NCBI GenBank assembly: GCA_903844735.1
Contig: CAIMUX010000025.1
Coordinates: 1 to 57,970 of the forward strand
Source of the DNA: Candidatus Eiseniibacteriota bacterium
GTDB taxonomy: Bacteria > Eisenbacteria > RBG-16-71-46 > CAIMUX01
Length of the DNA: 57,970 bases
Direction: 5' to 3'
Shown: positions 4,806 through 46,679 of the stretch, piece after piece
Numbering within the stretch: position 1 is the first letter of the stretch
Layout of the letters: each line of letters begins with the position of its first letter
Notes under the pieces: generated by a model
Told to the model about the DNA's origin: nothing
Seen by the model: the letters and a program-made list of their open reading frames with translations, nothing else
Databases searched by the model: none
Made by a program: the position numbers and the translations under genes

Positions 4806-4837
4806 CGCTTCCTACCTTCCGCTCGCCAGTCGTCCGC

Positions 4838-8268: not shown

Positions 8269-8272
8269 GCAG

Positions 8273-9118: not shown

Positions 9119-9134
9119 GGGGTACCCCTTTCCG

Positions 9135-15098: not shown

Positions 15099-15411
15099 TG
15101 TGTCGGACTCTCCTTCAATCTACTGTTGTGCAAACCGACAGTTCCAACGAAGTTGACAAAAACCCCGGCTCCTCCCGGAACACCCACGACCAGCGATTGA
15201 GGAGTTGCTGGGCCAAACGGCACGACTGCCTGTGACTCAGATGCTTAACTCACTCGGCGAACCAACAAGATAACATTAACACGAACGTAGACTCCCGTCT
15301 CTAAGGAAAATCGGCCACAAAACGGGATCTTTCCGGGGCGAACTAGGGACGCGATTCCCGACTTCTGAGATCGAATCTCTCTTTTCTGTCAGCACAGGGC
15401 GACAATTCGAG
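15099..15411. other. Intergenic gap within the EPS locus
   Basis: These 313 bases contain no gene that I can support. The central part (15250-15300) is clearly richer in A+T than the surroundings and is the likely promoter region for the downstream membrane protein-TPR-prsK-prsR run. I found no convincing -24/-12 element with correct spacing. Confidence 0.5.
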
Positions 15412-16281: not shown

Positions 16282-16301
16282 GAGTCGCTCCGGCGCCCGC
16301 C

Positions 16302-17746: not shown

Positions 17747-18320
17747 GGGTATCTCCCGGGCAGACTCACTCCGAGTTCCACCACGCTGTGGGTACAGTAG
17801 CATAAGAAGGAACCCGTGGAGATGAAGTTTGGACTGAAAACCGACTTGCAGACGCCGAGGGATTCTAAGGTGTTGCGGCTTCGCAGCCAATCCAAGATGA
17901 AGAACTCCCCGGCCTCATCTTTGAGCATGTCGGTGAGCGAGAGGCAATCGCAGCGTTGCCGGAGAGTACGAGATCTCCATAGAACCTGGACCGCATTGTC
18001 ACGGTGGAGCGATACCCGTTGTCAGTCGATCTGACAGTCTCTTCCTGCCACCTCCCGGGCGCCGTTCGTTGAGAAGAAACGAGTTCCCACGTACCCAGGC
18101 GGGCCGCAGCCGAACGAGATGTCACCACGGGCGACACTTGTTGAGGTAGGCATCTTGCACCGATCCAAGGAATCGAGTCCCAGAGCCAAGTTAGTGTGTT
18201 GCATCTGAAGCTGTTACCTGGACTGCAGTTTTTCCCGTTCGTGGCTTGGCACAAAACCTGTGGCGCAGAACGAGTGGGTCTCGTGGGTCATGCAACTTGT
18301 GTCAAGTGGAGGATCGTTCG
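17747..18320. other. Divergent regulatory region between exosortase and PEP-CTERM genes
   Basis: This 574-base region has no convincing gene. It must hold the promoters for the exosortase operon (minus) and for the PEP-CTERM gene (plus). On the minus strand TTGGCTGCGAAGCCGCAA (17874-17891) has the GG-N10-GC geometry of a sigma-54 promoter, 128 bases before the exosortase start, but its -12 half is weak. Confidence 0.45.
18247..18261 (+). promoter_or_regulatory. Candidate sigma-54 promoter of the PEP-CTERM gene
   Basis: TGGCAC-N5-CTGT lies 60 nt before the start codon. The -24 half is perfect (TTGGCACA context), while the -12 half has GT where GC is expected. Sigma-54 activators (two in this window) make such a promoter plausible. 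Confidence 0.35.
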
Positions 18321-19052
18321 ATGAGGAAAATCGCAGCAGTCTTGGCTCTCTTGGTAGCTCTTGCCGCGTTTCCGGCAACGTCGCACGCGGTATTCGTGGA
18401 GTTTTTCGGTCAGGACCTTGGGTTGGGCGAGTATACGCCGCAGCTCAACCATCCGTTGGCGGACGCAGCTCAGACTTCGTTTCTCTCGAATCTGACCGGC
18501 GTAGGGACAGAATCGTTTGAGTCCTACGTGGCCGGTACGGGTGGTCCGCTCGGTATCAGCTTCCCGGGAGCCGGAACCGCGACCCTCGGTGGCAACGGTT
18601 CGGTCGCCTACGTTCCCGCCGGGACCACCAACAATTTCGGCCGCTACGCCACCTCGGGCACAAAGTACTGGGAGTCATCGGACCTCTTCTCCATTGATTT
18701 CTCAACCGCGATTTCGGCATTTGGATTCTACGGTGTCGACATTGGAGACTTTAACGGCCAATTGACGTTGACGGCGACGGATGGTGTCACTCACAGTTAC
18801 ACCATTCCGAACTCCACCAACATCGAAGGAGGCAGCGTCCTCTACTACGGCTTCTACGACACCGAAATTGCCTACACCAGGATCGAGTTCGGGAATACCG
18901 CGCCGGGCGTGGACTACTTCGCGTTCGACGACTTCACCATCGGCACCCTGGAGCAGGTGACCCCGGAGGTTCCGGAGCCCGCATCGATGTTGTTGCTCGG
19001 AGTTGTCCTTGGGGCCGGAGCCCTATTTGCCCGGAAGCGGAAGAACAGCTAA
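18321..19052 (+). CDS. PEP-CTERM sorting domain protein (exosortase substrate)
   Basis: A 243-residue exported protein. It has a signal peptide (MRKIAAVLALLVALAAFPAT, cleavage after SHA), a beta-rich body with FSIDFSTAISAFGFYGVDIG and DYFAFDDFTIG, as in small PEP-CTERM carbohydrate-binding-like proteins, and a C-terminal sorting signal: VPEPAS (217-222), a hydrophobic helix, then ARKRKNS. The start at 18321 has GGAGG 8 nt upstream. It is probably cut and surface-attached by the exosortase encoded 0.6 kb away and is the only PEP-CTERM gene in the window. Confidence 0.95.
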   Translation: MRKIAAVLALLVALAAFPATSHAVFVEFFGQDLGLGEYTPQLNHPLADAAQTSFLSNLTGVGTESFESYVAGTGGPLGISFPGAGTATLGGNGSVAYVPAGTTNNFGRYATSGTKYWESSDLFSIDFSTAISAFGFYGVDIGDFNGQLTLTATDGVTHSYTIPNSTNIEGGSVLYYGFYDTEIAYTRIEFGNTAPGVDYFAFDDFTIGTLEQVTPEVPEPASMLLLGVVLGAGALFARKRKNS

Positions 19053-29947: not shown

Positions 29948-30331
29948 GCCTGCAGTGTAGGGCGACCGGGCGCAGGAAGAAAGCGGGTGTCGTCGGTTGA
30001 TATCGGATCCCGCTCTGACAACGGGCAAGGACTGGCAGCCCCGGAAGAGTCCTTTTTCCCAGTCGAACGCGTAGCCCGACGTCACGGACGTCAGTGGCGT
30101 CGAAGCCTGCAGATCTCGTCGGTGCTCATGCCGCCGGCTAACCTCCCGACGACCAGTTCGACCGGGACTCGTGTGCCTTCCATCACAGGGCGGCCAAAGC
30201 GCACGCTCTCGTCGACCGTGGCTCCGGGCGGCGGGATGGTCGCACGTGACCTGCCCGGGCTTGACCCAGGTCAAGGCGCCCCCGCCGTCTACCGCCGATC
30301 CTTATTGAGTGTGCCAACCAAGGAGGAAACC
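29948..30331. other. Intergenic region between tatD and the ferredoxin gene
   Basis: A 384-base divergent region. Its only recognisable elements are the FNR-type palindrome at 30261-30274 and an AGGAGG ribosome site at 30321-30326. I see no gene in it. Confidence 0.6.
30261..30274. promoter_or_regulatory. FNR/CRP-family palindromic operator
   Basis: TTGACCCAGGTCAA is a perfect TTGAC-N4-GTCAA palindrome of the FNR/DNR type, 58 nt before the start codon of the two-cluster ferredoxin protein. That distance suits activation of a promoter starting 15-25 nt before the gene. Low oxygen or nitric oxide would be the expected signal (inference). Confidence 0.6.
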
Positions 30332-31210
30332 ATGACACAGACCCGGGACATGATAGAAATCGACGAGGAGCTTTGCGACGGGTGCGGGCTCTGCGTTCCG
30401 TCGTGCCACGAGGGGGCCATCCGGATCATCAACGGAAAGGCCCGGCTGGTCGGCGATTCGCTCTGTGATGGGCTCGGCGCCTGCCTCGGGCACTGCCCGC
30501 GGGGCGCCTTGAAGGTCATCCACCGGGAGGCCGTTCCGTTCGTGGCGCCGGCGCCATTCCCGGCGACCGCCCTCGCTCCAACGCCGGCGTCTGTGCCGGC
30601 GGCGATTCTCGCCCCAACGTACGCGCCCCTCCCAGTGCCGGCCCCCGCCGCGCACCATCGTGAGGGAGGTTGTCCCGGCAGCCGAATGCGGATCATGAAA
30701 CCGATGTCTCCGGCTGTCGCCGGCCCGGCTCTTGGGGGAACATCCACCGGTGCGTCCCCGGCCGCACCGGGCGCACCAGCCGCGGATCCTCCTGTGGGCA
30801 GCGAGCCTTCGCAGCTCTCACACTGGCCGGTACAGATCCGTCTCGTTGCGCCGACCGCACCGTTTCTCGACGACACCCGATTGGTGGTCGCCGCGGACTG
30901 TGTGCCGGTAGCTCTGCCCGGATTCCACCGCGAGTTTGTGGCCGGAAATGCCGTGATGATCGGCTGCCCCAAGTTCGACGACCTCGAGGCCTACACCCAG
31001 CGCTTCGCCGAGATTTTCTCCACGGCTCGGGTTCGCCGCGTCACCGTGGTGGTGATGGAGGTGCCGTGCTGTCGCTCGCTCCCGACCGCCGTGCGGCGGG
31101 GAATCGAAGCTGCCGGCGCTTCAGTGCCGCTGGACGTGGTGGTGGTCGGTGTCGATGGGGAGATCCGCCAGCGGACGGTCGTCCCGGCGGAGGGGCCCCC
31201 GGGGCAGTGA
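30332..31210 (+). CDS. Ferredoxin-domain protein with conserved C-terminal iron-sulfur/metal domain
   Basis: A 292-residue cytoplasmic protein. The N-terminus has CDGCGLCVPSC, a complete four-Cys motif, and CDGLGACLGHCPRGA, in which one Cys of the usual four is replaced. An Ala/Pro-rich linker (about 75-165) contains GGCPGSRMR, and the C-terminal domain has SHWPVQIRLVAPTAPFLDD, VAADCVPVA, IGCPKFDD and MEVPCCRSL. This arrangement is known from anaerobes as a conserved protein, often in FNR- or hybrid-cluster-type regulons; its reaction is unknown. AGGAGG stands 5 nt before the ATG, and an FNR-type palindrome lies upstream. Confidence 0.88.
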   Translation: MTQTRDMIEIDEELCDGCGLCVPSCHEGAIRIINGKARLVGDSLCDGLGACLGHCPRGALKVIHREAVPFVAPAPFPATALAPTPASVPAAILAPTYAPLPVPAPAAHHREGGCPGSRMRIMKPMSPAVAGPALGGTSTGASPAAPGAPAADPPVGSEPSQLSHWPVQIRLVAPTAPFLDDTRLVVAADCVPVALPGFHREFVAGNAVMIGCPKFDDLEAYTQRFAEIFSTARVRRVTVVVMEVPCCRSLPTAVRRGIEAAGASVPLDVVVVGVDGEIRQRTVVPAEGPPGQ

Positions 31211-31384: not shown

Positions 31385-31406
31385 GCTACCCTTAGAGGAG
31401 AAAGCC

Positions 31407-32054
31407 ATGAACAGACCCCACCGATCCCCGCTGACCTGGACTTTATTCGGCATTCTGGCTTCCCTCCCCTTCGCTCTTGGTCCCGCCAACCCCTTCCTCA
31501 CGTCCGCCTCGGCGGAGCCTTGGCTCCACGTCAAGGTTGTCGAAGCCGGCGCCGACGCCGAAACAGTCCGCGTGAATGTCCCGCTCTCCCTCGTGGAGGC
31601 TCTGGTTCCGCTCATGGAACACGCCGGAGACCGGAATGATGACGCCGCCGAAGCTGACGATGCCGACCGGACCTCTTGGCGTCACCACCACGGGATGAGC
31701 ATCAACAGTCACGACATCACGCCGGCGGAAGTGCGCGCCCTGCTGGAAGCGTTCCGTCAAGCCGGAGACGGCGAGTATGTTACCGTCGACGGCGTGGACG
31801 AGAAGGTTCGCGTGACCAAATCCGGCGGGTTTTTTCTCGTCGATGTCGAGGAACGCGGAGAAGAGCGCGAGCAGGTGAGGGTGAATGTGCGGATGGAGGT
31901 ACTGGAAGCGCTTCTGTCCGGAGGCAAGGATGAGCTCAACTTCCAGGCTGCGGCCAAGTCGCTGCGGAACCACGCGGGCGAAGATCTCGTCACGGTGGTC
32001 TCCGAAGACGAAACGGTTCGCATCTGGATCGACGAGAAGAAGACCACCGATTGA
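31407..32054 (+). CDS. Exported protein with repeated VRVxVP-type units, unknown family
   Basis: A 215-residue protein with an N-terminal hydrophobic signal-like segment (LFGILASLPFALGPANPFLT, probable cut after ASA). It contains two related units: WLHVKVVEAG with ETVRVNVPLSLVEALVPL, and FFLVDVEERG with EQVRVNVRMEVLEALLSG. Each is followed by a helix (ITPAEVRALLEAFRQ; FQAAAKSLRNH) and a short strand pair (EYVTVDGVDEKVRV; DLVTVVSEDETVRI). It is acidic, with a His/Asp-rich linker. I do not know the family. A GAGGAG site precedes the ATG. A shorter relative follows at 32148. Confidence 0.78.
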   Translation: MNRPHRSPLTWTLFGILASLPFALGPANPFLTSASAEPWLHVKVVEAGADAETVRVNVPLSLVEALVPLMEHAGDRNDDAAEADDADRTSWRHHHGMSINSHDITPAEVRALLEAFRQAGDGEYVTVDGVDEKVRVTKSGGFFLVDVEERGEEREQVRVNVRMEVLEALLSGGKDELNFQAAAKSLRNHAGEDLVTVVSEDETVRIWIDEKKTTD

Positions 32055-32147
32055 ATCGCTGAGTGACGTCCGGGGGGGGGCGGAGCGTAAGCCCCGGCAG
32101 AGCAAACCCCGCGCCACCCCCGGGCGACTCTTCAAGGAGACGTCGCC

Positions 32148-32738
32148 ATGAACGAGCCGACCGGTCCCAATGACTTCACCCCCGGGGCGGTCAGTCCCAC
32201 GAGTCACCCGGACCCCAACCGTCCGGGGCGGTCGGGCGCTCTCACCCCGACCGTGGCCGTCGAGACCGGAATCCACCGTACTCGCATGCGGCGTTTCATC
32301 TTCATCCTGGTCGGGTGCGTCGCTGCCCTTTCGCTACTGATCGGCACCGGCCTCGTCATCGCTTGGCGAGCGGGATCGGTCGTCGTCCAGGTCAGCGGGC
32401 ACGACCGAGGCGGGGACGACGTTCGCATCAGGGTTCCGGCGGCCGTCGGCCACCTGGCGTTGCTCTGCATACCGGACCGCGCTTTCGGCTGGTCGGCACG
32501 GGACCGGGTTTTCCACCACGGCGAGATGCGACTGCTCGCCGGAGAGTTGGAGCGGATTCCCGACGGCACGGTGCTGGTCCAGGTCGACTCGCCCGGCGAA
32601 ACGGTGCAGATCTCGCGGGAGCACGGGATGCTGCTCATCCACGTCGACTCGGACCAGGAAAAGGTGCGAGTCGAGGTGCCGGTCAAGCTGGCCGGGGCGT
32701 TCCTCAAGAGGGTGGAGCGAGTGGCGCGAGTCGGTTGA
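32148..32738 (+). CDS. Single-pass membrane paralogue with VRVxVP units, unknown family
   Basis: A 196-residue protein with a Pro-rich cytoplasmic N-terminus (about 45 residues), one transmembrane helix (FIFILVGCVAALSLLIGTGL) and an outer domain that repeats the units of the preceding gene: VVVQVSGHDRGGDDVRIRVP, then VLVQVDSPGETVQI and MLLIHVDSDQEKVRVEVP with LAGAFLKR. AAGGAG lies 8 nt before the ATG. With the exported gene 93 nt upstream it forms a probable operon, so one protein may be membrane-tethered and the other periplasmic. No function is known to me. Confidence 0.78.
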   Translation: MNEPTGPNDFTPGAVSPTSHPDPNRPGRSGALTPTVAVETGIHRTRMRRFIFILVGCVAALSLLIGTGLVIAWRAGSVVVQVSGHDRGGDDVRIRVPAAVGHLALLCIPDRAFGWSARDRVFHHGEMRLLAGELERIPDGTVLVQVDSPGETVQISREHGMLLIHVDSDQEKVRVEVPVKLAGAFLKRVERVARVG

Positions 32739-33120: not shown

Positions 33121-35280
33121 TCAGGCAGCTTTTCTTCCTATTGCCTCAACATTCGGCCACAGTCCCGGCTTGCCGCCGCGCGGGGATTTGGTCGCCAGGT
33201 ACCGGTCGAACTCGTCGGCCGGCATGGGCCGCGCCAAGGCAAAGCCCTGCCCGATGTCGCACCCGCTGCGTCTGGCCCACTCCACCTGCTCGTCGGTCTC
33301 CACTCCTTCCGCCACTACCACCAAACCCAACATGTGTGCGAAAGCGGTGATGGCCGAGACAACCGCCCTCGGCCTGGGGCCCCCGGTGGCCGCTTGGATC
33401 AGCGCCTGGTCGATCTTCACGCATCCGATCGGCAGTCGGTGCAGATGGGAGATGGACGTGTTCCCCGTGCCGAAGTCATCCAGGGCCAGACGGACCCCAA
33501 GGAAGCGGAGCGACTCAAGCTGGGTGGCGTAGGCTCCGATGTCCTCCGCCGCCATGGACTCCGTCACTTCGAGGTCGAGCCTGGCGGGGTCCAGACCGGT
33601 GTCTTTCAGGATCGCCCGGATCTTCCGGGAGAAGTCCGGCGACCTCAACTGGAAGAGAGATAGGTTGACCGAGATCCGCATCCACGGCCAACCCTCGTCT
33701 TTCCAGACGTTGGCCTGTTCGCAGGCCTTGCGCAGAACCCAACAGTCGATGCTCGGACCCAGGCCGATTCCCTCCGCAAAGGGGAGAAAGTCGTGCGGAG
33801 CGAGCAGGCCGCGCTCGGGATGTTGCCACCGGATCAACGCCTCGGCACCGATGATCTCCCCGGTGCGCAGAGACATCTGGGGTTGGTAGTGGACGACGAG
33901 CTGCTCGGCCTCGAGGGCTTGGGCCAGGCTCTCCTTCAAGGAGGCCGTGGGACCCGCCCGATGGTCGGAGGTGGAGACGTAGGCCTGGTGCCGGCTGCCG
34001 CCGAGCGCCTTGGCCTTGTAGAGTGCCTCGTCCGCCTTGCCCAGGAGCTCGTCGGGGGTCGCGCCGTCCAGGGGATAAACCACGGTGCCGACGCTGCACG
34101 TGCCGACGATCGCGTTCCCGTCCACCAGGAACGGGAGCTTCATCACGCGGACGATCTTCTCGGCAATGAGCGCCACGTCGTCGGTGTGGGCCAGCTCCGG
34201 CAGGAGGATCAAAAACTCGTCCCCACCGAGACGCCCGACGGTATCGGACCGGCGCACGGTGCGATGCAGACGCTCCGCGACTCTGCGCAGGAGAGAATCC
34301 CCGGCCGCATGACCATAACTGTCGTTCACCGCCTTGAAGTTGTCGATGTCGAGGAAGATGAGCCCCAGGTGGTGCCCGTGGCGCTCGGCGAGTGCGACGG
34401 CGTTCTCCAGGCGGTCACAGAGAAGCTGCCGATTGGGAAGCCCGGTCAGGATGTCGTGGTAGGCCAGGTGCTCGAGCCGCTCCTCGGCGCGCTTGTGTTC
34501 GGTGATGTCCAGGGCGTACTCGAAGCGAACCATCCGCCCATCCGGCCACCGGATCAGGCGGTCGGTCAGTGCGAAATCCCGGTCGCTGCTTGCGTCGTGG
34601 TGTTCCCACCGGTGGACCTGCCCGGGGTTCTCGCGGATGGTGGCGTTGGTGCAGAAGGTGCAGGGGGCGTCGTGGTCATGGAGTACCCGGTAGCACGTTT
34701 CCCCCACGAGCGGTCGGCCGCTGCGGAGCTTTCTCATCGCGGCGTTGACGAAGAGAATCTCGTGGGTGTCGAGGTCCGACACGTAGATTGCTTCCTCGAG
34801 GCTCTCGAAGACGGAGAGAAGCTGGCCGTGTTCCTGTTCCAGGGCGGCCTCTGCCTTGACTCGGTCATCCAGAAGGCGCCGTTGTTGAATGGTTTTGTGG
34901 ATGACGGAGGGAAGCAGGCCGAGATAGAGCCCGCCGGCGTCCTTCGTGAGGTAGTCGCTCACACCGAGCTTCATGGCCTTGACGGCGACGTCCTCGCTCC
35001 TTGCGCCTGTAAGCATGACGGTGGGCGGAAGCCCGGTGGTTTCCGAGAGGGTCCGGATCACTTCGAGACCGCTCAAGCGGGGCAGGTTTTGGTCTACGAT
35101 CAGGACGTCGTGCTGCGCGCGAGCAAAGAGCGCGAGACCCTCCCCGCCATCCCGGGCCAGGTCGACGTGGTATCCCCACCGTTCGAGGGTTCTCTGCACC
35201 AAGCTCGCCTGTCCCGGGTCGTCCTCGATGTAGAGGAGTCGGGCCTTGCCCGAATCCCCCCCTGTTGCCCGCGTGTTCAT
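33121..35280 (-). CDS. Response regulator with PAS, GGDEF and EAL domains (cyclic di-GMP turnover)
   Basis: A 719-residue protein: receiver domain (about 13-130; LLYIEDD and IVDQNLP with the phosphoacceptor Asp), a PAS-like domain with a CTFC motif (about 160-270), GGDEF with intact RLGGDEF, and EAL with GAEALIRW, EVTESM, ALDDFGTGN, KIDQALI, VVAEGVETDEQ and GQGFALARP. Both catalytic signatures look active, so it could make and degrade cyclic di-GMP, with one side dominating. The ATG at 35280 (MNTRATGG) directly precedes the receiver domain; the frame is open to 35421. The 5' end of this gene exists in a second, decayed copy at 36604-36922. Confidence 0.9.
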   Translation of the reverse strand: MNTRATGGDSGKARLLYIEDDPGQASLVQRTLERWGYHVDLARDGGEGLALFARAQHDVLIVDQNLPRLSGLEVIRTLSETTGLPPTVMLTGARSEDVAVKAMKLGVSDYLTKDAGGLYLGLLPSVIHKTIQQRRLLDDRVKAEAALEQEHGQLLSVFESLEEAIYVSDLDTHEILFVNAAMRKLRSGRPLVGETCYRVLHDHDAPCTFCTNATIRENPGQVHRWEHHDASSDRDFALTDRLIRWPDGRMVRFEYALDITEHKRAEERLEHLAYHDILTGLPNRQLLCDRLENAVALAERHGHHLGLIFLDIDNFKAVNDSYGHAAGDSLLRRVAERLHRTVRRSDTVGRLGGDEFLILLPELAHTDDVALIAEKIVRVMKLPFLVDGNAIVGTCSVGTVVYPLDGATPDELLGKADEALYKAKALGGSRHQAYVSTSDHRAGPTASLKESLAQALEAEQLVVHYQPQMSLRTGEIIGAEALIRWQHPERGLLAPHDFLPFAEGIGLGPSIDCWVLRKACEQANVWKDEGWPWMRISVNLSLFQLRSPDFSRKIRAILKDTGLDPARLDLEVTESMAAEDIGAYATQLESLRFLGVRLALDDFGTGNTSISHLHRLPIGCVKIDQALIQAATGGPRPRAVVSAITAFAHMLGLVVVAEGVETDEQVEWARRSGCDIGQGFALARPMPADEFDRYLATKSPRGGKPGLWPNVEAIGRKAA

Positions 35281-35512
35281 GGGCGCAGGTCGGCTGGCGG
35301 CGATGGAATTCGCCGCCATCTTCTCGGTGGACCCGTCCACCGCGTTGCTCGATGTTTCTCGGTCGCCGCCATCCACGCCCCACGAGGCCTCCGACCGCAA
35401 CCAGTCTCGTCGATGGATCATTTCAAGTGGGCTCGACTACGAGACTTAGCAAACGGAGCCGTTGATAACGTCGGAAGGTCCGGGGGAGTACTGGAGGAAA
35501 ATCTGTTGATCC
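35197..35512. repeat. Segmental duplication, copy A (5' end and leader of the EAL gene)
   Basis: This stretch matches 36604-36922 over about 316 bases. Identical blocks include CATCTTCTCGGTGG, TCGGTCGCCGCCATCCACGC, GGGCTCGACTACGAGACTT, GCAAACGGAGCC and CTGGAGGAAAATCTGTTGA. Both copies have the same orientation and lie 1.4 kb apart. Confidence 0.85.
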
Positions 35513-35541
35513 GGGGGGGCACTGAGACTCGGGGTAGCATC

Positions 35542-36500: not shown

Positions 36501-36603
36501 GACAACTCCGGTGGTCACAGCCAATAGGTAATCGCCGATAGAAAGGCAAGTGATTGTCACGGATGCGGCCCGTCCGCTTTCGGATGGCGGCGTTGGTGGT
36601 TTG

Positions 36604-36922
36604 CCCCAAGCTCGGCGGCCTCGGGTCGTCCTCGCGGTGGAGGAGTCGGGCCTCGCCCGAGTCTGGCCCGGTCGCCCCGGTGTTCATGGCTGCAGGTCGG
36701 CCGGCAGCGCCGGATCTCGCCGCCATCTTCTCGGTGGCCCCGCCGACCGGCGCTGCTCGATGTTCCTCGGTCGCCGCCATCCACGCTCCACGAGGCCTCC
36801 CACCACAACCTGTCTCGTTGATGGATCGATTCAACTGGGCTCGACTACGAGACTTGGCAAACGGAGCCACTGATGTCGTCGGATCGTCTGGGGTGGGTGC
36901 TGGAGGAAAATCTGTTGAGCCG
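36604..36922 (-). pseudogene. Segmental duplication, copy B: decayed 5' end of an EAL-type response regulator
   Basis: Reads in the minus direction as MNTGATGPDSGEARLL and EDD, matching MNTRATGGDSGKARLL and EDD of the intact gene, then breaks off after about ten codons of the receiver domain. The leader upstream of the start is also duplicated (see copy A, 35197-35512). The missing body of the gene and the base changes show it is not functional. Confidence 0.75.
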
Positions 36923-37033
36923 AAGGGAAGCGGCGGGGAGCCGCGGGGGCCAAGCGATCGCCGACGGCCAACCCGGAACACCGGTCGCCGCCTCAAACTC
37001 ATGATTGCCAGAGACTGCTCGACGTCCTCCGGC

Positions 37034-37149: not shown

Positions 37150-37168
37150 GTGTCCCATGCGGGGACAC
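37150..37168. promoter_or_regulatory. Inverted repeat in the nuo leader
   Basis: GTGTCCC-ATGCG-GGGACAC is a perfect 7-bp inverted repeat directly downstream of the candidate promoter. It could be an operator or a leader hairpin. Confidence 0.4.
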
Positions 37169-37231
37169 CCGGGCGCAACAGGCTCCCGTAAGCCCCCGCC
37201 GGCACGGACCGCAGGAAACATCGAGGTCATC

Positions 37232-37639
37232 GTGCACTTTGAGTACTCCGTGGTGCTGATCTACCTGACTGTTAGCGCGGTCATTGTAGGACTGGCGCTG
37301 TGGCTCGGCCGGTTTCTGCGGCCGAACCTTCCGGATCCCCAGAAAGCGCAGATCTATGAGTGCGGCGAACGCCCGATCGGGAGCGCATGGTTCAACTTCA
37401 ACCCTCGCTTCTACTTGATCGCCCTCGTATTCATCGTATTTGACGCCGAGATCGCCCTGACCTTTCCGGTAGCAACTGTGGCCAGAGGGTGGATCGCCCG
37501 GTCGGACGGAACCGGCTGGGTCGCGGTGGTGGAGATCCTGCTCTTTTTCGTGATCCTTTTAGCCGCCCTGGCCTATGTCTGGGGAAAGGGCGAACTCGAT
37601 TGGTCGCGGGAGCTTACCAGCCCCGAGGAGATGCCATGA
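37232..37639 (+). CDS. nuoA: NADH-quinone oxidoreductase subunit A
   Basis: A 135-residue membrane subunit of complex I with three helices. Diagnostic motifs are YECGERPIGSAW with the loop Cys, NPRFYLIALVFIVFDAEIAL and a final helix (LLFFVILLAALAYVWGKGEL). I take GTG at 37232 as the start: GAGG stands 5 nt upstream and the frame before it is not NuoA-like. Its stop overlaps the nuoB start (ATGA). Confidence 0.95.
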   Translation: MHFEYSVVLIYLTVSAVIVGLALWLGRFLRPNLPDPQKAQIYECGERPIGSAWFNFNPRFYLIALVFIVFDAEIALTFPVATVARGWIARSDGTGWVAVVEILLFFVILLAALAYVWGKGELDWSRELTSPEEMP

Positions 37640-38163
37640 CGGAGAACCTCAGCGGCCTGGAGGTTTCGCGGCAATGCCCCACCGGGGGTGACGCGGCGCC
37701 ATTCGTGGTCACCACGCGGGTCGATGACCTGGTGAACTGGTTTCGCGAGTCGTCGATCTGGTACCTGCTCTTTGCCACCGCTTGCTGTGGCATCGAGCTG
37801 ATGCAGACCGGCGGCCCTCGCACCGACCTCGACCGGTTCGGGGCGGTGTTTCGCTCGACCCCACGCCAGTCCGACCTGCTCATCGTGGCCGGGACCATAA
37901 CCTACAAGATGGCCGACCGGGTGCGGCTGCTCTACGCGCAGATGGCCTCGCCTAAGTACGTGCTGGCCATGGGGAGCTGCGCCAACTGCGGGGGGCTCTT
38001 CCAGCCCTCCTACTCGGTGGTGCCGGGCGTGGACGCCATCGTCCCCGTCGACATCTATCTACCCGGCTGCCCGCCGCGACCCGAGGCTCTGAACGAGGCG
38101 ATTCTTCGTCTGCAGGACCTGATGAAGGGCGAGCACTGGGCCAGCCGCCGGAAGCATCAGTAG
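37636..38163 (+). CDS. nuoB: NADH-quinone oxidoreductase subunit B
   Basis: A 175-residue peripheral subunit carrying cluster N2, the last iron-sulfur cluster before quinone. All four ligands are visible: Cys50 and Cys51 in ATACCGIE, Cys115 in GSCANCGG and Cys145 in PGCPPRPE. The start overlaps nuoA by ATGA. Length and motifs are those of an ordinary NuoB. Confidence 0.97.
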
Positions 38164-38188
38164 GGACTTCCCAGGAGGGGGACGATTC

Positions 38189-39847
38189 TTGACCGAGAGC
38201 GAGATCTGTGACCGCCTGAAAGCCGCGCTCCCCGACGCTGTCGAGGAGTTCGAATCCCAGCTCCTCGATCCTGCCATTCGTGTGAAGCCGGCCCGCCTCG
38301 TGGAGGCCTGCCGGTTCCTGCGCGACGACCCGAGCACGCGGATGCACTACCTGCGTCTGGTCACCGGGGTTGATCGGCTGCCGGCCGGGGAAACACCGGG
38401 GCGGATTGAGATGGTCTACCACCTCTGGTCCTACGAGAAGCGTCACGGGATCGTGCTGCGAGTGCACCTCGACCGAGACAATCCGGTGGCGGACACGGTG
38501 TGTGGTGTGTGGCCGGTGGCGAACTGGGGTGAGCGCGAGGCGTTCGACCTACTGGGTGTCACCTTCACGGGACACCCGGACCTGAAGCGGATCATGATGC
38601 CGGTCGACTGGGTCGGGCACCCGCTGCGCAAAGACTATCAGCGTCCGGACCGCTACCACGGGCTGCCCACCAACCGCACCGCCGTCCTCGAACAGGGGCG
38701 CGTCCAGGTGGCCACCGCCGAGCACGTCGCGAAGGCCGAGCCGGTGAGCGGCTACATGCAGCTCAACATGGGGCCACACCACCCCGCCACCCATGGCGTG
38801 ATCAATTTTCTCATCGAGACCGACGGCGAGGTCCTGCGCCGGGCGATTCCCGATGTCGGCTACCTCCACCGGGGCATCGAGAAGATCTCCGAAATGGTCG
38901 GTTACCTCGGGACCATGCCCTACACCGACCGGGTCGACTATCTCGGCGCCATGTTCACCAACCACGGCTGGGCCCTGGCCGTGGAGAAGCTGTGCAACAT
39001 CGAGGTGCCGCGCCGGGCCGAGTTCTGCCGAGTGATCGCCAGCGAGCTGAACCGGATCGCCAGCCACCAGATCGCCACCGGGGCGCTGGCCATGGACTTG
39101 GGCGCCTTCACCCCGTTTCTGCACTGGATCCGCGAACGCGAGAAGATCAACGACATCATGGAGCGGATCTGCGGCGCGCGCCTCACCTACAACTACATGC
39201 GCTTCGGCGGCGTCTCGCGCGACATCGACCAGGTGACCATCGACGAGATTCGCCGCTGGCTCGATCACTACGAGCCGATGATGCTGGAGTTCGACCGGCT
39301 CATCTCCGGCAACGAGATCTTCATCCGCCGCCTGGCCAACGTGGCGGTGATCGACCCGGACGACGCCATCGCCTACGGACTGGTCGGGCCCAACCTGCGC
39401 GGTTCAGGGCTCGCCTGGGATGTCCGCCGGGATGAGCCGTACTCGATCTACAACGAGTTCGAGTGGGACGTCATCACCGGGACTGGCGTGCATGGCGTGG
39501 TCGGCGACGCCTTCGATCGCTACGATTGCCGCCTGCGGGAGATCCGCGAAAGCGTGAGGATCCTGCGCCAGGCCTGCGAGCGAATCCCCGAGGGAGAGGT
39601 CAGGACAAAGACGGCGCGGATCAAGCCCGCGGCCAACGAGGTCTACACCCGCGTGGAAGGACCGCGCGGCGAGTGCGGGTTCTTCGTGGTGTCAGACGGG
39701 ACCGACAAGCCGTACCGGTCGCGCTTCCGCACCGGGTCCTTCACTGCCATGACGATCATCGAGCACTTGAGCCCCGGCCTGATGATTGCCGACCTGGTGG
39801 CGCTGATCGGCTCGCTGGACGTCCTGGCACCGGAGATTGACCGTTGA
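38189..39847 (+). CDS. nuoCD: NADH-quinone oxidoreductase subunits C and D, fused
   Basis: A 552-residue fusion. Residues 1-165 are NuoC (30 kDa; [51 protein letters not shown]). From about 188 it is NuoD (49 kDa; [41 protein letters not shown]-type [16 protein letters not shown], and a C-terminus ending in the conserved [10 protein letters not shown]). Together these line the quinone site with NuoB. The start is a TTG at 38189 with GGAGGGG 8 nt upstream. Such fusions are known in enterobacteria and several other phyla. Confidence 0.95.
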
Positions 39848-41115
39848 ACATCATGCACTACCTGGCGGACCTGCTGGTCCGGAGTCTGTTCAAGGCGGAT
39901 CCGGCCACCTGGCCCTACACCTGGATCGCCTATGCCGTCGTCATCGGGGTGGGAGCGCTTCTGGCCTTCGCTTTCGTGGCGATCTTCGCCGGCCCGGTGA
40001 CCTGGATCGAGCGGCGAATCGCCGGCCGGATCCAGTCGCGCATCGGCCCGAATCGCAACGGCCCGCAAGGGTGCCTCCAATGGCTGGCTGACGGGATCAA
40101 GTGCTGGCTCAAGGAGGACTTAGTCCCCGCGACGGCCGACAAGCCGCTTTACCTGGCCGCGCCCTACCTCGTCTTCACGGGAATGTTCGGGGCGTTCGTG
40201 GTGCTCCCCTTCGGCGCGCATGTCATTGCGGCCGATCTCAACGTCGGTTTGCTCTACATATTGGCGGTGACCTCGCTGGTCGTGGTGGGGCTCTTGATGG
40301 CCGGCTGGGGCAGCAACTCGAAGTGGGCGCTCTTCGGCGGTGTGCGCAGCGCGGCACAGCTCGTTTCTTACGAGGTTCCGTCGGCGTTCTCGCTGATGGC
40401 GGTGGTGTTGATGGCAGGCACCCTTTCGACGCAGGGCATCGTCGGAGCACAGGGCGGTTGGCCGTGGCAGTGGTTCGTCTTCCGCAACCCGTTTCTCTTC
40501 GCCGCCTTCATCATGTACTTCATCTCCGCGATCGCGGAAGGCAACCGGACACCGTTCGACCTGCCAGAGGCGGAGAGCGAAATCATCGCCGGGTACAACA
40601 TCGAGTACTCCGGCATGCGCTTCCTTTTCTTCCTCTTCGCCGAGTGGGCCAACATGTGGATCATGGCCGCGGTGGCCACCCTGGCGTTCCTCGGCGGATG
40701 GCAGATCCCCGGCATATCGCCGGAGCGGATCGCGGAGGCGAAGGGCTGGACCTTCGTCGGCTGGCAGGCCCTTTCGTTCGCCATCTTCGTGTTCAAGGGC
40801 ACGTGCCTGGTCTTCACCATCATCCAGATTCGCTGGACGCTGCCCCGCCTGCGGGTGGACCAGTTGATGATCACTTGCTGGAAGTACCTTGTTCCCCTCT
40901 CGATGGGGTCGGCGACCGGTGTCCTGCTCCTCATGGCGCTCGTGCGCGAGGGCGGCATCGTCGACTGGGTCATGCGGGGCGCCATGCTTCTCGTCGGGCT
41001 CTTGGTAGCCGGAGCCTACATTCGCAAGGTTCGCGCCACGTTCATGGCGGACCGCGATAACTATAAGAAGATGGAGGGCCGGGACCTATGGTACCCACCG
41101 TACCGCCTGCCGTGA
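39844..41115 (+). CDS. nuoH: NADH-quinone oxidoreductase subunit H
   Basis: A 423-residue membrane subunit linking the peripheral arm to the proton pumps. It has the expected helices and the quinone-channel motifs [49 protein letters not shown] and [19 protein letters not shown]. The start is TTG at 39844, overlapping the nuoCD stop (TTGA) with GGAG 8 nt upstream; an ATG nine bases later lacks spacing. The 3' end overlaps nuoI by 28 nt. Confidence 0.96.
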
Positions 41116-41810
41116 GTCCGCATCGCCGGCCCCCCAGGGGGACTGTCCGAGCCTACTTCCGGAACATCCGGCTCGCCCTGTCCACGGCCTTCGACGGCAT
41201 GAGCGTCACGATGAGCTACATGTTCCGCCGGCCGTTGACGATCCAGTACCCGGACAAGATCGACAAGCCTGTGCAGGAGATGCTGCCCGAGAGCTACCGC
41301 GGGGTCCTCGAAGTCGACATGGACCGCTGCACGGTCTGCCTGCAGTGCCAGAAGATCTGTCCGCTGGGCTGCATCAACATCGAATCGTGCAAGAACCCAG
41401 AGACCGGCAACCGGGAAGTGACGAAGTTCGACATCGACATCGGCCTGTGCATGTACTGCGGCCTCTGCGCCGAGACTTGCAACTTCGATGCCCTGGACCA
41501 CACGCGGGAGTTCGAGGCCACGGTCACAACCCCGGACCAAATGATCCTGCACTTCGTGGAGAAGCCGCGGGAGGTAACCAAGCTGAAAGCGGCCGAGATG
41601 CCGGTGCGCAAGCACAAGGGGTCGATCCTGCAGAAGATGATACCGGCCTTCGGGCGGAGGCACCCGCAAGAGGTCTGGACACCCACCGCGTACGCGGCGG
41701 CGCCCGTTCCGGCACTCAAAGCGCCGACCGCGACACCAAAGCCCGCGGCACCGGTTGCGTCAGCCGCGCCGAGCGCCGCGGATTCCCCAACACCGGAGCA
41801 GGCCCCATGA
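41088..41810 (+). CDS. nuoI: NADH-quinone oxidoreductase subunit I
   Basis: A 240-residue ferredoxin-like subunit with two [4Fe-4S] clusters (N6a/N6b): Cys81, 84, 87 and 91 in CTVCLQCQKICP, and Cys121, 124, 127 and 131 in CMYCGLCAETC. The C-terminus carries an extra Ala/Pro-rich tail of about 55 residues not found in most NuoI. A GGAGGG site lies 9 nt before the ATG at 41088, inside the 3' end of nuoH. Confidence 0.95.
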   Translation: MVPTVPPAVSPHRRPPRGTVRAYFRNIRLALSTAFDGMSVTMSYMFRRPLTIQYPDKIDKPVQEMLPESYRGVLEVDMDRCTVCLQCQKICPLGCINIESCKNPETGNREVTKFDIDIGLCMYCGLCAETCNFDALDHTREFEATVTTPDQMILHFVEKPREVTKLKAAEMPVRKHKGSILQKMIPAFGRRHPQEVWTPTAYAAAPVPALKAPTATPKPAAPVASAAPSAADSPTPEQAP

Positions 41811-42358
41811 ACGGATCGATCGTCCAAGTCGTCCTCTTCTATCTCTTGGCGGCCCTGGCCCTGACCGGTGCGTGCCTGGTGGCGTTTTCGCGCAGCATCG
41901 TGCACAGCGCCTTCGCGCTGCTCGGGACGTTCGTCGGCGTGGCCGGGCTCTACGCCCTTCTCGCGGCCGACCTGGTGGCCATCGTCCAGGTCATGGTCTA
42001 TGTCGGCGGCGTGCTCATCCTCATCCTCTTCGCGGTCATGCTGACCGCGCGGGTCGACGAGGGGAAGGAAAGCAACCCGACCGTAGGGAAGATCCCGGGA
42101 TTGTTGGCGATGCTGGCGATGGCCGGACTGCTCGTGGTGACCGCGGTGAAAGCGTTCGGGCCGCGCACCGTGATTTCCGAAGCGAATCCTCCGTCGACGG
42201 TTAGTCCTATCGGCAACCTCCTCTTGAGCAAGTACGTGCTGCCGTTCGAGGCGATTTCCGTGCTGCTCCTGGCCGTGCTCCTCGGCGCGGTGACCATTGC
42301 CAGCGGGAGGATGCGAAAAGGGGCCGGCGGCAAGCAGGAAGGGGAGGCACCGCGGTGA
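41807..42358 (+). CDS. nuoJ: NADH-quinone oxidoreductase subunit J
   Basis: A 183-residue membrane subunit with five helices, including the conserved third helix VMVYVGGVLILILFAVML that forms the pi-bulge in complex I. Its start overlaps nuoI by ATGA and its stop overlaps nuoK (GTGA). Ordinary length. Confidence 0.95.
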   Translation: MNGSIVQVVLFYLLAALALTGACLVAFSRSIVHSAFALLGTFVGVAGLYALLAADLVAIVQVMVYVGGVLILILFAVMLTARVDEGKESNPTVGKIPGLLAMLAMAGLLVVTAVKAFGPRTVISEANPPSTVSPIGNLLLSKYVLPFEAISVLLLAVLLGAVTIASGRMRKGAGGKQEGEAPR

Positions 42359-42672
42359 GCATCGGACTCGGGCATTACCTGGTCGTTTCAGGGCTCCTGT
42401 TCTCGCTCGGGCTCTACGTTCTGATCACGAGGAAGAACGCGGTGGCCATGCTCATGGGGGTCGAGCTGGTGCTGAACGCGGCCCTGCTCAACATGGTGGC
42501 GTTTTCGCGCCTCGGGCGGGTCGGGCCGGACAAACTGGACGGGCAGGTCTTTGCCCTCTTCGGCATCGTCCTGGCGGCGGCCGAGGCGGTAGTCGCCCTC
42601 GCGCTTGTGCTCCAGCTCTACCGGGCCTTCCGCTCGGTCGACACCACCGAGACGACGGACCTGAAGGGGTAA
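42355..42672 (+). CDS. nuoK: NADH-quinone oxidoreductase subunit K
   Basis: A 105-residue, three-helix subunit. The two conserved membrane Glu are present in MLMGVELVLNAALLN and AAAEAVVALALV. The GTG start at 42355 overlaps the nuoJ stop (GTGA). Confidence 0.96.
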   Translation: MSIGLGHYLVVSGLLFSLGLYVLITRKNAVAMLMGVELVLNAALLNMVAFSRLGRVGPDKLDGQVFALFGIVLAAAEAVVALALVLQLYRAFRSVDTTETTDLKG

Positions 42673-42675
42673 ATC

Positions 42676-44997
42676 ATGCATCTCGTGCCCTTCCCGCTGC
42701 TCGCGCTGATTCCGCTCTTCCCGCTCCTCGGGGCTGCCTACTGTGGGCTGGTCGGCTGCGGCCTGTTCAAGAAGTACGGGGAAGGAGCGATCCACTGGCC
42801 GGCGATCCTTCTCCCATGGGGCTCGTTTGTGGTTACCCTGATCGCGGTCATCACGCTGGCCGGGGCCGGTCACGGGGCCGTGCTGCACCAACGGCTGTGG
42901 GACTGGTTCCGCATCGGTTCGCTCTCGGTCGATGCCGCTTTCCAGATCGACCGGCTCTCCGCGGTGATGTGTCTGGTGGTGACCTTCGTCGGCAGCTTGA
43001 TCCACGTCTACTCGCGCGGCTACATGAAGGGGGACGCCTCGTACTGGCGGTTCTTCTCGAATCTGAACCTGTTCATGTTCTCGATGCTGGTCTTGGTCCT
43101 CGGCGACAATCTGCTCGTCATGTTCGTAGGCTGGGAAGGAGTGGGGCTCTGCTCCTACCTGCTCATCGGGTTCTGGTACCGCGAGAGGAAGAACGCCGCC
43201 GCGGGGATGAAGGCGTTCGTGGTGAACCGGGTCGGTGACTACGGGTTCACGCTGGGCGTCTTCCTACTGTTCTGGGGGTTGGCCGCGGCGCCGGCGAGTC
43301 TGCTACGGGGGCAGGGTGGTGAACCGGTCGCGGCGGCTGCTGTTCACGAGGTTGCGGTCGGGCACGGGGAAGTCGCTACGTCTCCGGGAGAGCATGGGGC
43401 GCCGATCGGCGAGGCCGCCGGAGAGCACGGTGCGGCCGTGAGCCACGGCACCGAAGGCTCGGAGGCCGGCCGCACGCCGGTCAGCAGCGTCACCTTCCGA
43501 GACATCGAGCGGATCATGGAGGACCCGGCACGGCGCGACGCGGTGCTGAACCAGAAGGTCCTCGGTTTCGGGCTCATCACTCTGGTCTGTCTTCTGTTCT
43601 TCGTGGGTGCTACGGGCAAGTCGGCGCAGCTCCCGCTGTATGTCTGGTTGCCCGACGCCATGGCCGGACCGACGCCGGTCTCGGCGTTGATCCACGCCGC
43701 CACCATGGTCACCGCGGGCGTCTACATGGTGGCACGGCTGCACTTCCTCTTTGCCTACAGCCCGGTCGCGATGACCGTGGTCGCCACCGTGGGGGCGCTG
43801 ACCGCGCTCTTCGCCGCCACCATCGGGCTCTTCCAGTACGATATCAAGAAGGTGCTGGCCTACTCCACGGTGAGCCAGCTCGGGTTCATGTTCGTGGCTG
43901 TGGGCGTCGGCGCCTACTGGGTCGGGATCTTCCACCTCGTGACCCACGCCTTCTTCAAGGCCTGCCTCTTCCTCGGCTCGGGCAGCGTGATCCTCGGCTG
44001 TCACCATGAGCAGGACATGCGGAAGATGGGCGGCCTGCGCAAGCTCATGCCGATCACGGCGGTGACCTACTTCGTTTCGGCGTGCGCCATTGCCGGCTTC
44101 CCGTTTTTCTCGGGGTTCTTCTCCAAGGACGAGATCCTCTGGAAGGCGTTCGACAGTGGCAACATGCTGCTGCCGGGTGGTGGGATCATTCTCTGGGTGC
44201 TGGCCGCCACGGCCGCGCTCTGCACCAGCTTCTACATGTTCCGGTCGTACTACATGACCTTCAGCGGCACGTACCGGGGAGCGCAGGGCCACGGCACGCA
44301 CGATGCTCACGACGCTCACGGTGGTCACGGTCACGGGCTGCCCAAGGAGTCGCCACGCTCCATGACCTGGGTGCTCGCCATCCTGGGCGGCCTCGCGGTG
44401 GTGGGCGGGTACATCGGCCTGCCGATCCTCTGGGGTCTGCCCAACGCCTTTGAGACCTGGCTGGAGCCGATCTTCGAAGGGTCGCACCACCTGATCCACT
44501 CCGCCGAGCGCGGACACGGCGCCGAGTGGGGCCTGATGCTGTTCTCCGTGGTCATCGCCTTCAGCGGGTTCTTCCTGGCCCGCTGGCTCTACAAGGATGC
44601 GAAGAGCCCGATCCCCGGGCGCCTGCTGGCGAGCCGCAACGGTCTTGTGCAGGGGTTCCACCGGGTCGTGTTCAACAAGTACTATGTGGACGAGGCGTAC
44701 CAGGCATCCTTCGTGAACGGGACGGTGGGGCTCTCCGGACTCCTTTCCTGGTTTGACCGCACGGTCATTGACGGCATCGTCAACCTGGCCGGGACCGCCG
44801 GCAGGTTCTGCTCCGGAATCCAGGGGTGGATCGACGCCAACATCGTGGACGGGGCGGTCAATCTTGTGGCTTCTCTCTCGATGCGCGCCGGTCGTTCCCT
44901 GCGGAAGGTGCAGACCGGCCGGATTCAGAACTATGTGCTTGGGCTGACCGCGGGTGCCGTGGTCCTGGTAGTAATCGGCTTCCTGTTGAAGTGGTAG
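42676..44997 (+). CDS. nuoL: NADH-quinone oxidoreductase subunit L with long His/Ala-rich loops
   Basis: A 773-residue antiporter-like subunit, longer than the usual 610-670. Core motifs are present: LFVGWEGVGLCSYLLIGFW, LPLYVWLPDAMAGPTPVSAL, LIHAATMVTAGVYM and KKVLAYSTVSQLGFM, plus a long C-terminal section. The extra length comes mainly from a loop of about 80 residues near residue 207 (GEHGA-type repeats, 43300-43510) and a His/Asp/Gly-rich loop near 540 (GHGTHDAHDAHGGHGHG, 44290-44340). The core appears intact for proton pumping. Starts 3 nt after nuoK. Confidence 0.95.
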   Translation: MHLVPFPLLALIPLFPLLGAAYCGLVGCGLFKKYGEGAIHWPAILLPWGSFVVTLIAVITLAGAGHGAVLHQRLWDWFRIGSLSVDAAFQIDRLSAVMCLVVTFVGSLIHVYSRGYMKGDASYWRFFSNLNLFMFSMLVLVLGDNLLVMFVGWEGVGLCSYLLIGFWYRERKNAAAGMKAFVVNRVGDYGFTLGVFLLFWGLAAAPASLLRGQGGEPVAAAAVHEVAVGHGEVATSPGEHGAPIGEAAGEHGAAVSHGTEGSEAGRTPVSSVTFRDIERIMEDPARRDAVLNQKVLGFGLITLVCLLFFVGATGKSAQLPLYVWLPDAMAGPTPVSALIHAATMVTAGVYMVARLHFLFAYSPVAMTVVATVGALTALFAATIGLFQYDIKKVLAYSTVSQLGFMFVAVGVGAYWVGIFHLVTHAFFKACLFLGSGSVILGCHHEQDMRKMGGLRKLMPITAVTYFVSACAIAGFPFFSGFFSKDEILWKAFDSGNMLLPGGGIILWVLAATAALCTSFYMFRSYYMTFSGTYRGAQGHGTHDAHDAHGGHGHGLPKESPRSMTWVLAILGGLAVVGGYIGLPILWGLPNAFETWLEPIFEGSHHLIHSAERGHGAEWGLMLFSVVIAFSGFFLARWLYKDAKSPIPGRLLASRNGLVQGFHRVVFNKYYVDEAYQASFVNGTVGLSGLLSWFDRTVIDGIVNLAGTAGRFCSGIQGWIDANIVDGAVNLVASLSMRAGRSLRKVQTGRIQNYVLGLTAGAVVLVVIGFLLKW

Positions 44998-45007
44998 GGG
45001 GAGGGGC

Positions 45008-46669
45008 ATGGACTACCCGACGACCAGTTCGCTGCTATCGTGGATGATCTTCACGCCGATGATCGGCGTAGGGATGATCCTGCTCGTCTTGGGCCTGCGC
45101 CCGTTCCTGCGCTTGAGCCAGGCGTTCGCCGACAACTTCTCCCGAACCGTGGGGCTCTTGTGCAGCGCCCTGGTGATGGCAATGGCCCTCGCCATGTGGA
45201 GCGGCTTCAAGGGTGGCTCCTCCGCGATTCAGTTCGCCCATCACGCCGTCTGGATCCGGCAATGGGCGGTGGAATATTTCGTCGGCGTCGACGGGATTTC
45301 GATCTCCATGGTCATCCTGACCGGGCTGGTGTTCCTGGCCGGCGCCATCGCCTCGGTGCCCTGGTGGGGCCGACTGGATGACGCGCACCACCCGCATTTC
45401 TCCAAGAAGCGGGTTCCGGGGTACTGGATTCTCTTCCTTCTTCTGGAGACCGGGGTGCTCGGGACGTTCAGCTCGCTCGACTTCTTCCTCTTCTATATTT
45501 TCTGGGAGGTCATGCTCCTGCCGATGTACTTCCTGATCGGCATCTGGGGCGCGCCCCCGCGGGTCGAGGCCGGTGGCCGGGTCCGCGGCGGTCCGTACGC
45601 GGCGATCAAGTTCTTCCTCTACACCCTGGCCGGGTCGGTGCTGATGCTGCTGGCCATGATCGCCATCTACCAGCATTCGGGTCCCTCGACGCTGGTCGAC
45701 GGGACGCGCACGCTGCATACCTTCAATATCCTGCACCTCACGAAGATGTTCGCGGCGGGGAGCTTCTCCGTGGCCCCCGCGGTCTTCGGGTTGACGTTCA
45801 TGCACGCGGTTTTCATCGCGCTTTTCATTGGTTTCTCGATCAAGGTGCCGATGTTCCCGTTCCACACCTGGTTGCCCGACGCACACGTGGACGCGCCGAC
45901 GCCGATCTCCGTGATTCTGGCCGGGATTCTGCTCAAGACCGGGATGTACGGCATGCTGAGGTTCAACCTGCAGATGCTCAACGGGGCAATGGAGTGGGCG
46001 GCCTGGACTATCGGCGTGCTGGGCGTGATCAACATCGTCTACGGCGCGTTCGTCTGCATGGCGCAGAAGGACTTGAAGAAGCTCATCGCTTATTCGTCGG
46101 TGTCGCACATGGGGTTCTGTCTGCTGGGACTGGCCGCACTCACGCCCCAAGGGGTGACCGGCTGCGTTTTCCAGATGTTCTCCCACGGCATCATCAGCCC
46201 GATGCTCTTCCTCATCGCCGGGGTGATCTACGACCGGGCGCATACACGAGAGATCGCCGGCTTCGGCGGTCTGGCCGAACGGTTGCCTGAGTACACCGGC
46301 ATGGTGGGGCTGGCGTTTATGGCCTCGCTCGGATTGCCTGGGTTGGCCGGATTCATCGGTGAGGTTTTGGTCTTCATGGGCGGCTTCGGGGCGACAAACC
46401 ACGCCTTCCGCGGCCTGGTCGCGGTGGGCGCCCTGTCGGTGATCATTACCGCTGGTTACTACCTCTGGACCATGCAGCGGATGTTCCTCGGCATGCTGAA
46501 CGACAAGTGGGCCGGGCTTTGGGACATGAACTGGCGCGAGCGGATCACGCTCTACCCGCTGGCCGCGCTCACGATCCTCTTCGGGGTCTACCCGGCTCCG
46601 ATCTTCAACCTCGTCAACACCACGCTCCACGCACTGCTGCCGGTGGTGGGCGGGGCGGTGATCCGGTGA
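45008..46669 (+). CDS. nuoM: NADH-quinone oxidoreductase subunit M
   Basis: A 553-residue antiporter-like subunit with FYIFWEVMLLPMYFLIGIWG, FHTWLPDAHVDAPTPISVIL, GILLKTGMYGMLRFNL and KKLIAYSSVSHMGFCLLGL (conserved Lys and Glu of the pump). GGGGAGGGG precedes the ATG by 2-10 nt. Ordinary. Confidence 0.96.
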   Translation: MDYPTTSSLLSWMIFTPMIGVGMILLVLGLRPFLRLSQAFADNFSRTVGLLCSALVMAMALAMWSGFKGGSSAIQFAHHAVWIRQWAVEYFVGVDGISISMVILTGLVFLAGAIASVPWWGRLDDAHHPHFSKKRVPGYWILFLLLETGVLGTFSSLDFFLFYIFWEVMLLPMYFLIGIWGAPPRVEAGGRVRGGPYAAIKFFLYTLAGSVLMLLAMIAIYQHSGPSTLVDGTRTLHTFNILHLTKMFAAGSFSVAPAVFGLTFMHAVFIALFIGFSIKVPMFPFHTWLPDAHVDAPTPISVILAGILLKTGMYGMLRFNLQMLNGAMEWAAWTIGVLGVINIVYGAFVCMAQKDLKKLIAYSSVSHMGFCLLGLAALTPQGVTGCVFQMFSHGIISPMLFLIAGVIYDRAHTREIAGFGGLAERLPEYTGMVGLAFMASLGLPGLAGFIGEVLVFMGGFGATNHAFRGLVAVGALSVIITAGYYLWTMQRMFLGMLNDKWAGLWDMNWRERITLYPLAALTILFGVYPAPIFNLVNTTLHALLPVVGGAVIR

Positions 46670-46679
46670 GGGAGGGGCG

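Follow-up and report, generated by a model that had tools for sequence, protein, structure and literature searches.

The window, a stretch of 57,970 nucleotides from a Candidatus Eiseniibacteriota genome, encodes in tandem an exported protein (P1) and a membrane-anchored protein (P2), a real, conserved and unnamed pair that is an exported, duplicated variant of a widespread SHOCT-associated domain. P1 and P2 are true paralogues made of one repeated module, and this module is homologous to an unmodelled C-terminal domain of SHOCT-like proteins. Although neither Pfam nor NCBIfam has a model for the module, it is a regular component of DUF2089 regulator operons; the window shows it in a second guise, as a duplicated, exported and bicistronic form, near-universal in one order and two small phyla.

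Paralogy and module architecture of P1 and P2

Eleven orthologues each of P1 (alignment A1) and P2 (alignment A2) were gathered from whole genomes and aligned, and hhalign raw scores were compared with those obtained after shuffling the alignment columns 100 times. Profile-profile comparison of A1 with A2 gave a probability of 99.1 and an E-value of 1.2e-18, with a raw score of 120.6 against a shuffled maximum of 21.3, and comparison of modules 1 and 2 of P1 gave a probability of 98.1 (E 6.3e-14, raw score 70.8, shuffled maximum 20.6). The P1-orthologue profile alone recovered P2 genes in six-frame whole-genome searches at E-values of 4.4e-6 to 3.9e-16. On the strength of the hhalign E-values, the column shuffles and this unaided recovery, both the paralogy and the repeat are real; the 100 shuffles ruled out a chance repeat. 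An earlier note had described a repeated unit in tandem exported and single-pass membrane proteins, and both open reading frames are present (Table 1) with a repeat that is significant against the shuffles.

The AlphaFold2 models, built from 11-sequence alignments (mean pLDDT 73.6 for P1 and 80.3 for P2, pTM ~0.6), show strand-turn-strand-helix units, and the full module has the order strand-strand-helix-helix-strand-strand (ββ-α-α-ββ). The predicted strands of P1 comprise residues 39–46, 53–59, 124–128, 132–139, 142–149, 155–162, 193–198 and 202–209, and its first and last strand pairs may close onto each other. In P2 the transmembrane helix is followed by strands at 77–84, 91–97, 141–148 and 151–158, and then by strands at 161–168 and 171–178 with a helix. 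The second strand of the repeated units is marked by VRVNVP (residues 54–59) and VRVNVR (157–162) in P1, and by VRIRVP (92–97) and VRVEVP (173–178) in P2. Invariant residues in the alignment of 11 P1 proteins include Trp39, His41 and Pro59 near the start and Trp207 and Asp209 in the last strand. Two modules had been claimed for each protein, which holds for P1; P2 of the window consists of one full module and a strand-strand-helix half, and two are kept only in the orthologue from genome G014 (L027:1201-1713). As this orthologue retains the helix-strand-strand half that is absent from the window P2, the half-module appears to be a reduction of a full second module.

Table 1. Features of the P1–P2 locus in window coordinates, with the gene cluster that recurs near the pair in other genomes
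Feature	Position	Strand	Basis
P1, exported two-module protein, 215 aa	31407..32054	+	ORF; orthologues in 10/11 genomes of the order and in two other phyla
P1 Shine-Dalgarno AGGAG	31396..31400	+	Sequence reading
P1 signal peptide, ~residues 1-36, Sec type, without lipobox cysteine	31407..31514	+	Hydrophobic core and A-x-A-type end before WLH in orthologues; putative cleavage site
P1 module 1, residues 38-139: WLHVKV, VRVNVP, helix, helix, strand, strand	31518..31823	+	AlphaFold2 secondary structure; SHOCT-protein profile match 31506-31814, E 2.8e-9
P1 module 2, residues 142-210, VRVNVR version	31830..32036	+	hhalign to module 1, probability 98.1, E 6.3e-14; AlphaFold2
P2, membrane-anchored P1 paralogue, 196 aa	32148..32738	+	ORF; orthologue alignment A2; hhalign to P1, E 1.2e-18
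P2 Shine-Dalgarno AGGAG	32135..32139	+	Sequence reading
P2 transmembrane helix, ~residues 48-75, predicted N-in/C-out	32289..32372	+	Hydropathy 2.6, 4 K/R and no D/E just upstream; AlphaFold2 helix 44-75
P2 module 1, residues 76-158	32373..32621	+	hhalign to P1 module 1, probability 97.8, E 1.1e-12; AlphaFold2
P2 half-module, residues 160-196: strand, VRVEVP strand, helix; helix-strand-strand half absent	32625..32735	+	hhalign to P1 module 1, E 1.4e-8; full second module in G014 orthologue L027:1201-1713
Omp85/POTRA, kinase, NtrC, OMP barrel cluster	L025:10640-16357, L126:573-4149, L129:10413-13829

A Foldseek search of the PDB with the P1 and P2 models produced no match at E ≤ 0.001, and a sequence search of the PDB gave nothing meaningful, with matches to roadblock/LC7 and DNA ligase III at E 0.07 or worse. 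The best VIA-align Z-scores, all in the noise range, were 4.8 for PUR-alpha, 4.6 for LolA and FABP, and 4.5 for an SsgA-like protein. The PUR-repeat (Pur-alpha)/whirly-type and SsgB folds are likewise four-strand meanders with flanking helices, and PURA superposes on P1 with 2.7 Å over 75 residues at a Z below 5 and a Foldseek E above 0.01; the Z of the SsgA-like match to P2 is also below 5. These proteins are without sequence similarity to P1 and P2, and nucleic-acid binding is implausible for an acidic periplasmic protein. The eight strands and several helices of the P1 model, and the placement of LolA, FABP and SAHS chains over P1 residues 39–211 at Z ~4 to 4.6, would suit a periplasmic ligand or lipid carrier pair of the LolA/FABP-like half-barrel type with P2 as its membrane dock. 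However, the r.m.s. deviations are mostly 5–10 Å, a Z under 5 is the tool's stated noise range, the Foldseek result offers no match, P1 is a repeated and strongly acidic sequence, and a carrier role is unexpected for a module whose homologue is cytoplasmic in SHOCT proteins. A carrier pair is consequently considered improbable.

Relationship to the SHOCT-like proteins of DUF2089 operons

Scans against Pfam, NCBIfam and PHROGs found no family that covers either P1 or P2, and placement in a known anti-sigma or DUF family, an outcome that would have spoken against novelty, was looked for without any Pfam or NCBIfam match. PF22746 (SHOCT-like_DUF2089-C) had no match in P1 or P2 at E ≤ 10, and the N-terminal domain of SHOCT-like proteins is hence not found in the pair. 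No Pfam match to the Toastrack families (DUF4097/DUF2154/DUF2807) was obtained, and the AlphaFold2 models contain α+β modules, not a right-handed β-helix. A search of viral contigs returned no relative, and a search of a genome contig collection returned one, from Candidatus Eisenbacteria.

The module was recognised when PF22746 was searched in related genomes, which gave proteins of the form SHOCT, linker, domain. The P1 profile matches the C-terminal domain of such a protein in genome G049 at E 4e-13 (small set) and 1.4e-11 (whole genome), and its hits in six-frame whole-genome searches include SHOCT-module proteins from other phyla (E 6e-5 to 2.5e-12). Aligned by hhalign to seven SHOCT-linked domains, P1 module 1 gave a probability of 97.2 and E 4e-11, with a raw score of 58.9 against a shuffled maximum of 16.2. 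In the reciprocal direction, a profile (A3) built from 11 SHOCT-module proteins that represent several phyla, with no P1 or P2 among them, recovers P1 from at least 10 of the 47 genomes of the phylum, with E-values of 1e-5 to 1e-11 (six-frame search). Its match to P1 of the window (31506-31814, E 2.8e-9) covers module 1 only, and the alignments of A3 to P1 take in profile positions 47–135 only, excluding the SHOCT part. Even plain tblastn aligns the SHOCT-module protein of G198 with the P1 of G145 (34% over 87 residues, E 2e-4). Neither Pfam nor NCBIfam has a model for the SHOCT-linked module, and the SHOCT-module proteins exceed the cut-off for SHOCT-like only; full-length matches to them occur in ~50 of 385 sampled bacterial genomes. 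Under profile searches of the kind proposed for checking it, the claim that the pair belongs to no named family holds only in that no modelled family contains the pair; the module is not isolated and can be recognised in SHOCT-like (PF22746) proteins, where it is the C-terminal domain.

A DUF2089 gene adjoins the SHOCT-module gene in 16 of the 17 genomes examined, including 6 of 7 that were chosen by the P1 profile without a SHOCT or DUF2089 criterion. DUF2089 proteins have a zinc ribbon, an HTH and a SHOCT-like C-terminus. The window's own genome carries such an arrangement on a different contig, L074, with the DUF2089 gene at 7568-7918 and the SHOCT-module gene at 8041-8484. SHOCT-module neighbours often include SHOCT-Toastrack and LiaI-LiaF-TM genes, as in PSP/Lia-like envelope-stress operons, and the order in genome G313 is DUF2089, SHOCT-Toastrack (SHOCT-DUF4097), LiaI-TM-like, LiaI-TM+SHOCT, SHOCT-module. 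This order agrees with the DUF2089/Toastrack/LiaI-LiaF-TM contexts that, in the main text of PMC11237479, are proposed as likely functional analogues of the phage-shock-protein (PSP) system; in the same text, SHOCT-like domains are predicted to keep globular domains at the membrane's inner face. For DUF2089/SHOCT-like proteins, the literature found was the operon context in PMC11237479, whose main text has no name for the present module. Small membrane proteins with a β-hairpin-like tail were also observed between the DUF2089 and SHOCT-module genes (L078:7887-8147, 86 residues, without a Pfam match, and L076:6030-6434, 134 residues); a half-module was considered in these, and the match was not significant.

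Conservation, topology and surroundings of the pair

P1 and P2 form a tight two-gene unit in 10 of the 11 genomes of the window's order (Candidatus Eisenbacteria kin), the sole exception, G001, being 68% complete. The pair is also present in G014, from another family of the class, and is absent from ~30 other genomes of the class, apart from G012, G032 and G033, where the copies are remote or lone. Remote lone P1-like proteins were observed in another family of the class, at L030:9109-9645 in G032 (E 6e-13) and C375:29986-30438 in G033 (E 2e-11). Two other phyla also have the pair, in 6 of 7 genomes of the first and in 4 of 5 of the second.

The N terminus of P1 is a Sec-type signal peptide, MNRPHRSPLTWTLFGILASLPFALGPANPFLTSASA. 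At all 18 orthologous loci P1 precedes P2, P1 has a signal peptide and P2 has a transmembrane segment by a hydropathy script, so the reading of the pair as an exported and a single-pass membrane protein is borne out by a constant topology. Basic residues precede the N-terminal transmembrane segment of P2 at all of these loci except that of G014. The gap between the two genes ranges from −4 to 167 nt, and from −4 to 18 nt in 14 of the 18. Such a conserved bicistron fits the complex at the envelope that had been suggested from the exported/membrane pairing, in which the two proteins would associate.

The surroundings of the pair vary, and a survey of its gene neighbourhoods for conserved partners, which the earlier note had proposed, found no neighbour common to all loci. 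No DUF2089, PspA, PspC, sigma or anti-sigma gene lies in the same operon, and no DUF2089 gene lies beside the pair, the genome's own DUF2089 genes being on L073 and L074. The lack of linkage to regulators and the variable surroundings, together with near-universality in the order and presence in two other phyla, agree with a pair that has a structural or housekeeping task in the envelope of certain uncultured diderm lineages and takes no part in signalling, its module serving only as a protein-protein interaction fold. As the relatives of the module consistently adjoin a regulator, this explanation is kept as a lesser possibility. The only neighbourhood that recurs is a cluster 2–9 kb from the pair in G005, G386 and G388, genomes of two phyla, and comprises Omp85/POTRA, an exported protein of ~220 residues, a HAMP histidine kinase, an NtrC-type response regulator and an OMP barrel. 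The cluster is a candidate outer-membrane stress system and, because it is absent from the window, is treated as a lead only.

The gene preceding P1 encodes a 4Fe-4S ferredoxin (30338-31210), and the only good FNR-like palindrome nearby, TTGACCCAGGTCAA (30261-30274), an FNR/CRP-like site, lies ~60 nt before that gene. A scan with the FNR consensus gave 18 sites with two mismatches against 8.9 expected, and none before P1. Scanning for promoters and terminators gave no informative result. FNR-linked neighbours had been taken as a hint of redox or anaerobic stress; this link is not supported, as the palindrome precedes the ferredoxin gene and not the pair, and neither is conserved at other pair loci. 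An anti-sigma/sigma-type or redox (FNR-linked) signalling pair could draw on a gene in G006 that reads as an ECF-type sigma factor and is divergent from the pair, but a sigma-like gene is near the pair at this one locus only and the pair holds no anti-sigma or redox cofactor motif. With the FNR and ferredoxin observations added, a signalling pair of this kind is disfavoured as highly improbable.

Elsewhere in the window, a direct repeat of ~330 nt (35188-35518 and 36595-36927, 80–88% identical, spacing ~1408) duplicates the upstream region and start of a response regulator-GGDEF-EAL gene (33121-35421). Its second copy, which appears decayed, precedes genes at 37157-48176, downstream of the pair, that read as an NADH-quinone oxidoreductase (nuo) operon. 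By eye, 3669-19052 is a glycosyltransferase/Wzz-type chain-length and regulator cluster in which 16838-17746 encodes an exosortase-like protein and 18321-19052 an exported protein ending in VPEPASMLLLG...RKRKNS, a PEP-CTERM-type sorting substrate.

Proposed role and comparison with known systems

Because the same module is found inside the cell in membrane-stress operons, a group that is widespread yet has received little study, the pair probably serves the cell envelope and shares its ancestry with the SHOCT-linked module. The reading we favour, and hold tentatively, is that P1 and P2 are an extracytoplasmic, duplicated offshoot of this module that forms a membrane-tethered periplasmic complex in envelope homeostasis. 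P1 and P2 would descend from the ββ-α-α-ββ module, which elsewhere is joined to SHOCT-like domains in the cytoplasmic proteins of DUF2089 operons, descent in this direction being presumed. P1, with its two modules in tandem, is exported to the periplasm, and P2 is predicted to display its one and a half modules on the periplasmic side of the inner membrane. P2 may then tether P1 through module-module (sheet-to-sheet) contacts, with its orphan strand-strand-helix half as the putative docking edge, and the resulting complex could serve as a scaffold or sensor in cell-envelope homeostasis. Complex formation and the envelope role are suggested by the topology, by the consistent pairing of the two proteins and by the setting in which the relatives occur. 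As the SHOCT-linked module is thought to be cytoplasmic, and P1 and P2 lack SHOCT, their function may have changed relative to it.

Mature P1 contains 22–28% Asp and Glu and has a net charge of −16 to −29 in all 11 orthologues, and the C-terminal 120 residues of P2 carry a net charge of only +1 to −11. LiaX binds cationic peptides, and in that sense P1 could be a very acidic periplasmic protein that acts as a decoy for, or sensor of, cationic compounds or metal ions, with P2 as its anchor; the SHOCT-linked relatives of the module do occur in Lia/PSP-like operons. An acidic surface alone is weak evidence, however, and LiaX and the module are not related in sequence; the NCBIfam LiaX model matches only the SHOCT part of SHOCT proteins, below the cut-off. 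A decoy is therefore regarded as unlikely. A more far-reaching envelope reading is similarly doubtful: the pair would be the periplasmic arm of an unrecognised PSP/Lia-like envelope-stress system, in which the module would act as sensor or scaffold at either face of the inner membrane, SHOCT-linked on the inside and as P1 and P2 on the outside, and would be tied in some lineages to the Omp85/two-component/sigma-54 regulator cluster.

Naming the module would unify these proteins and give a structural target, and comparison of its inside and outside forms is a natural test of what SHOCT-linked proteins of PSP-like systems do. With LiaX/YvlB (SHOCT-like and DUF4097 Toastrack), the pair has in common only the idea of a SHOCT-associated envelope-stress effector, and P1 and P2 are without sequence similarity to Toastrack or LiaX. 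The DUF2089/Toastrack PSP-like contexts in the main text of PMC11237479, with a predicted membrane-stress function, are the source operons of the module's cytoplasmic relatives, whereas the pair lies outside any such operon. The closest likeness is to the SHOCT-like DUF2089-operon proteins, which share with P1 and P2 the ββ-α-α-ββ module, the pattern WLxIxV...(K/R)V.V.vPL.LV, a final ...VDVDD....V.I and reciprocal profile matches. These proteins have an N-terminal SHOCT domain and one module, are without a signal peptide and adjoin DUF2089, whereas P1 and P2, without SHOCT, have two or one-and-a-half modules and are exported or anchored.
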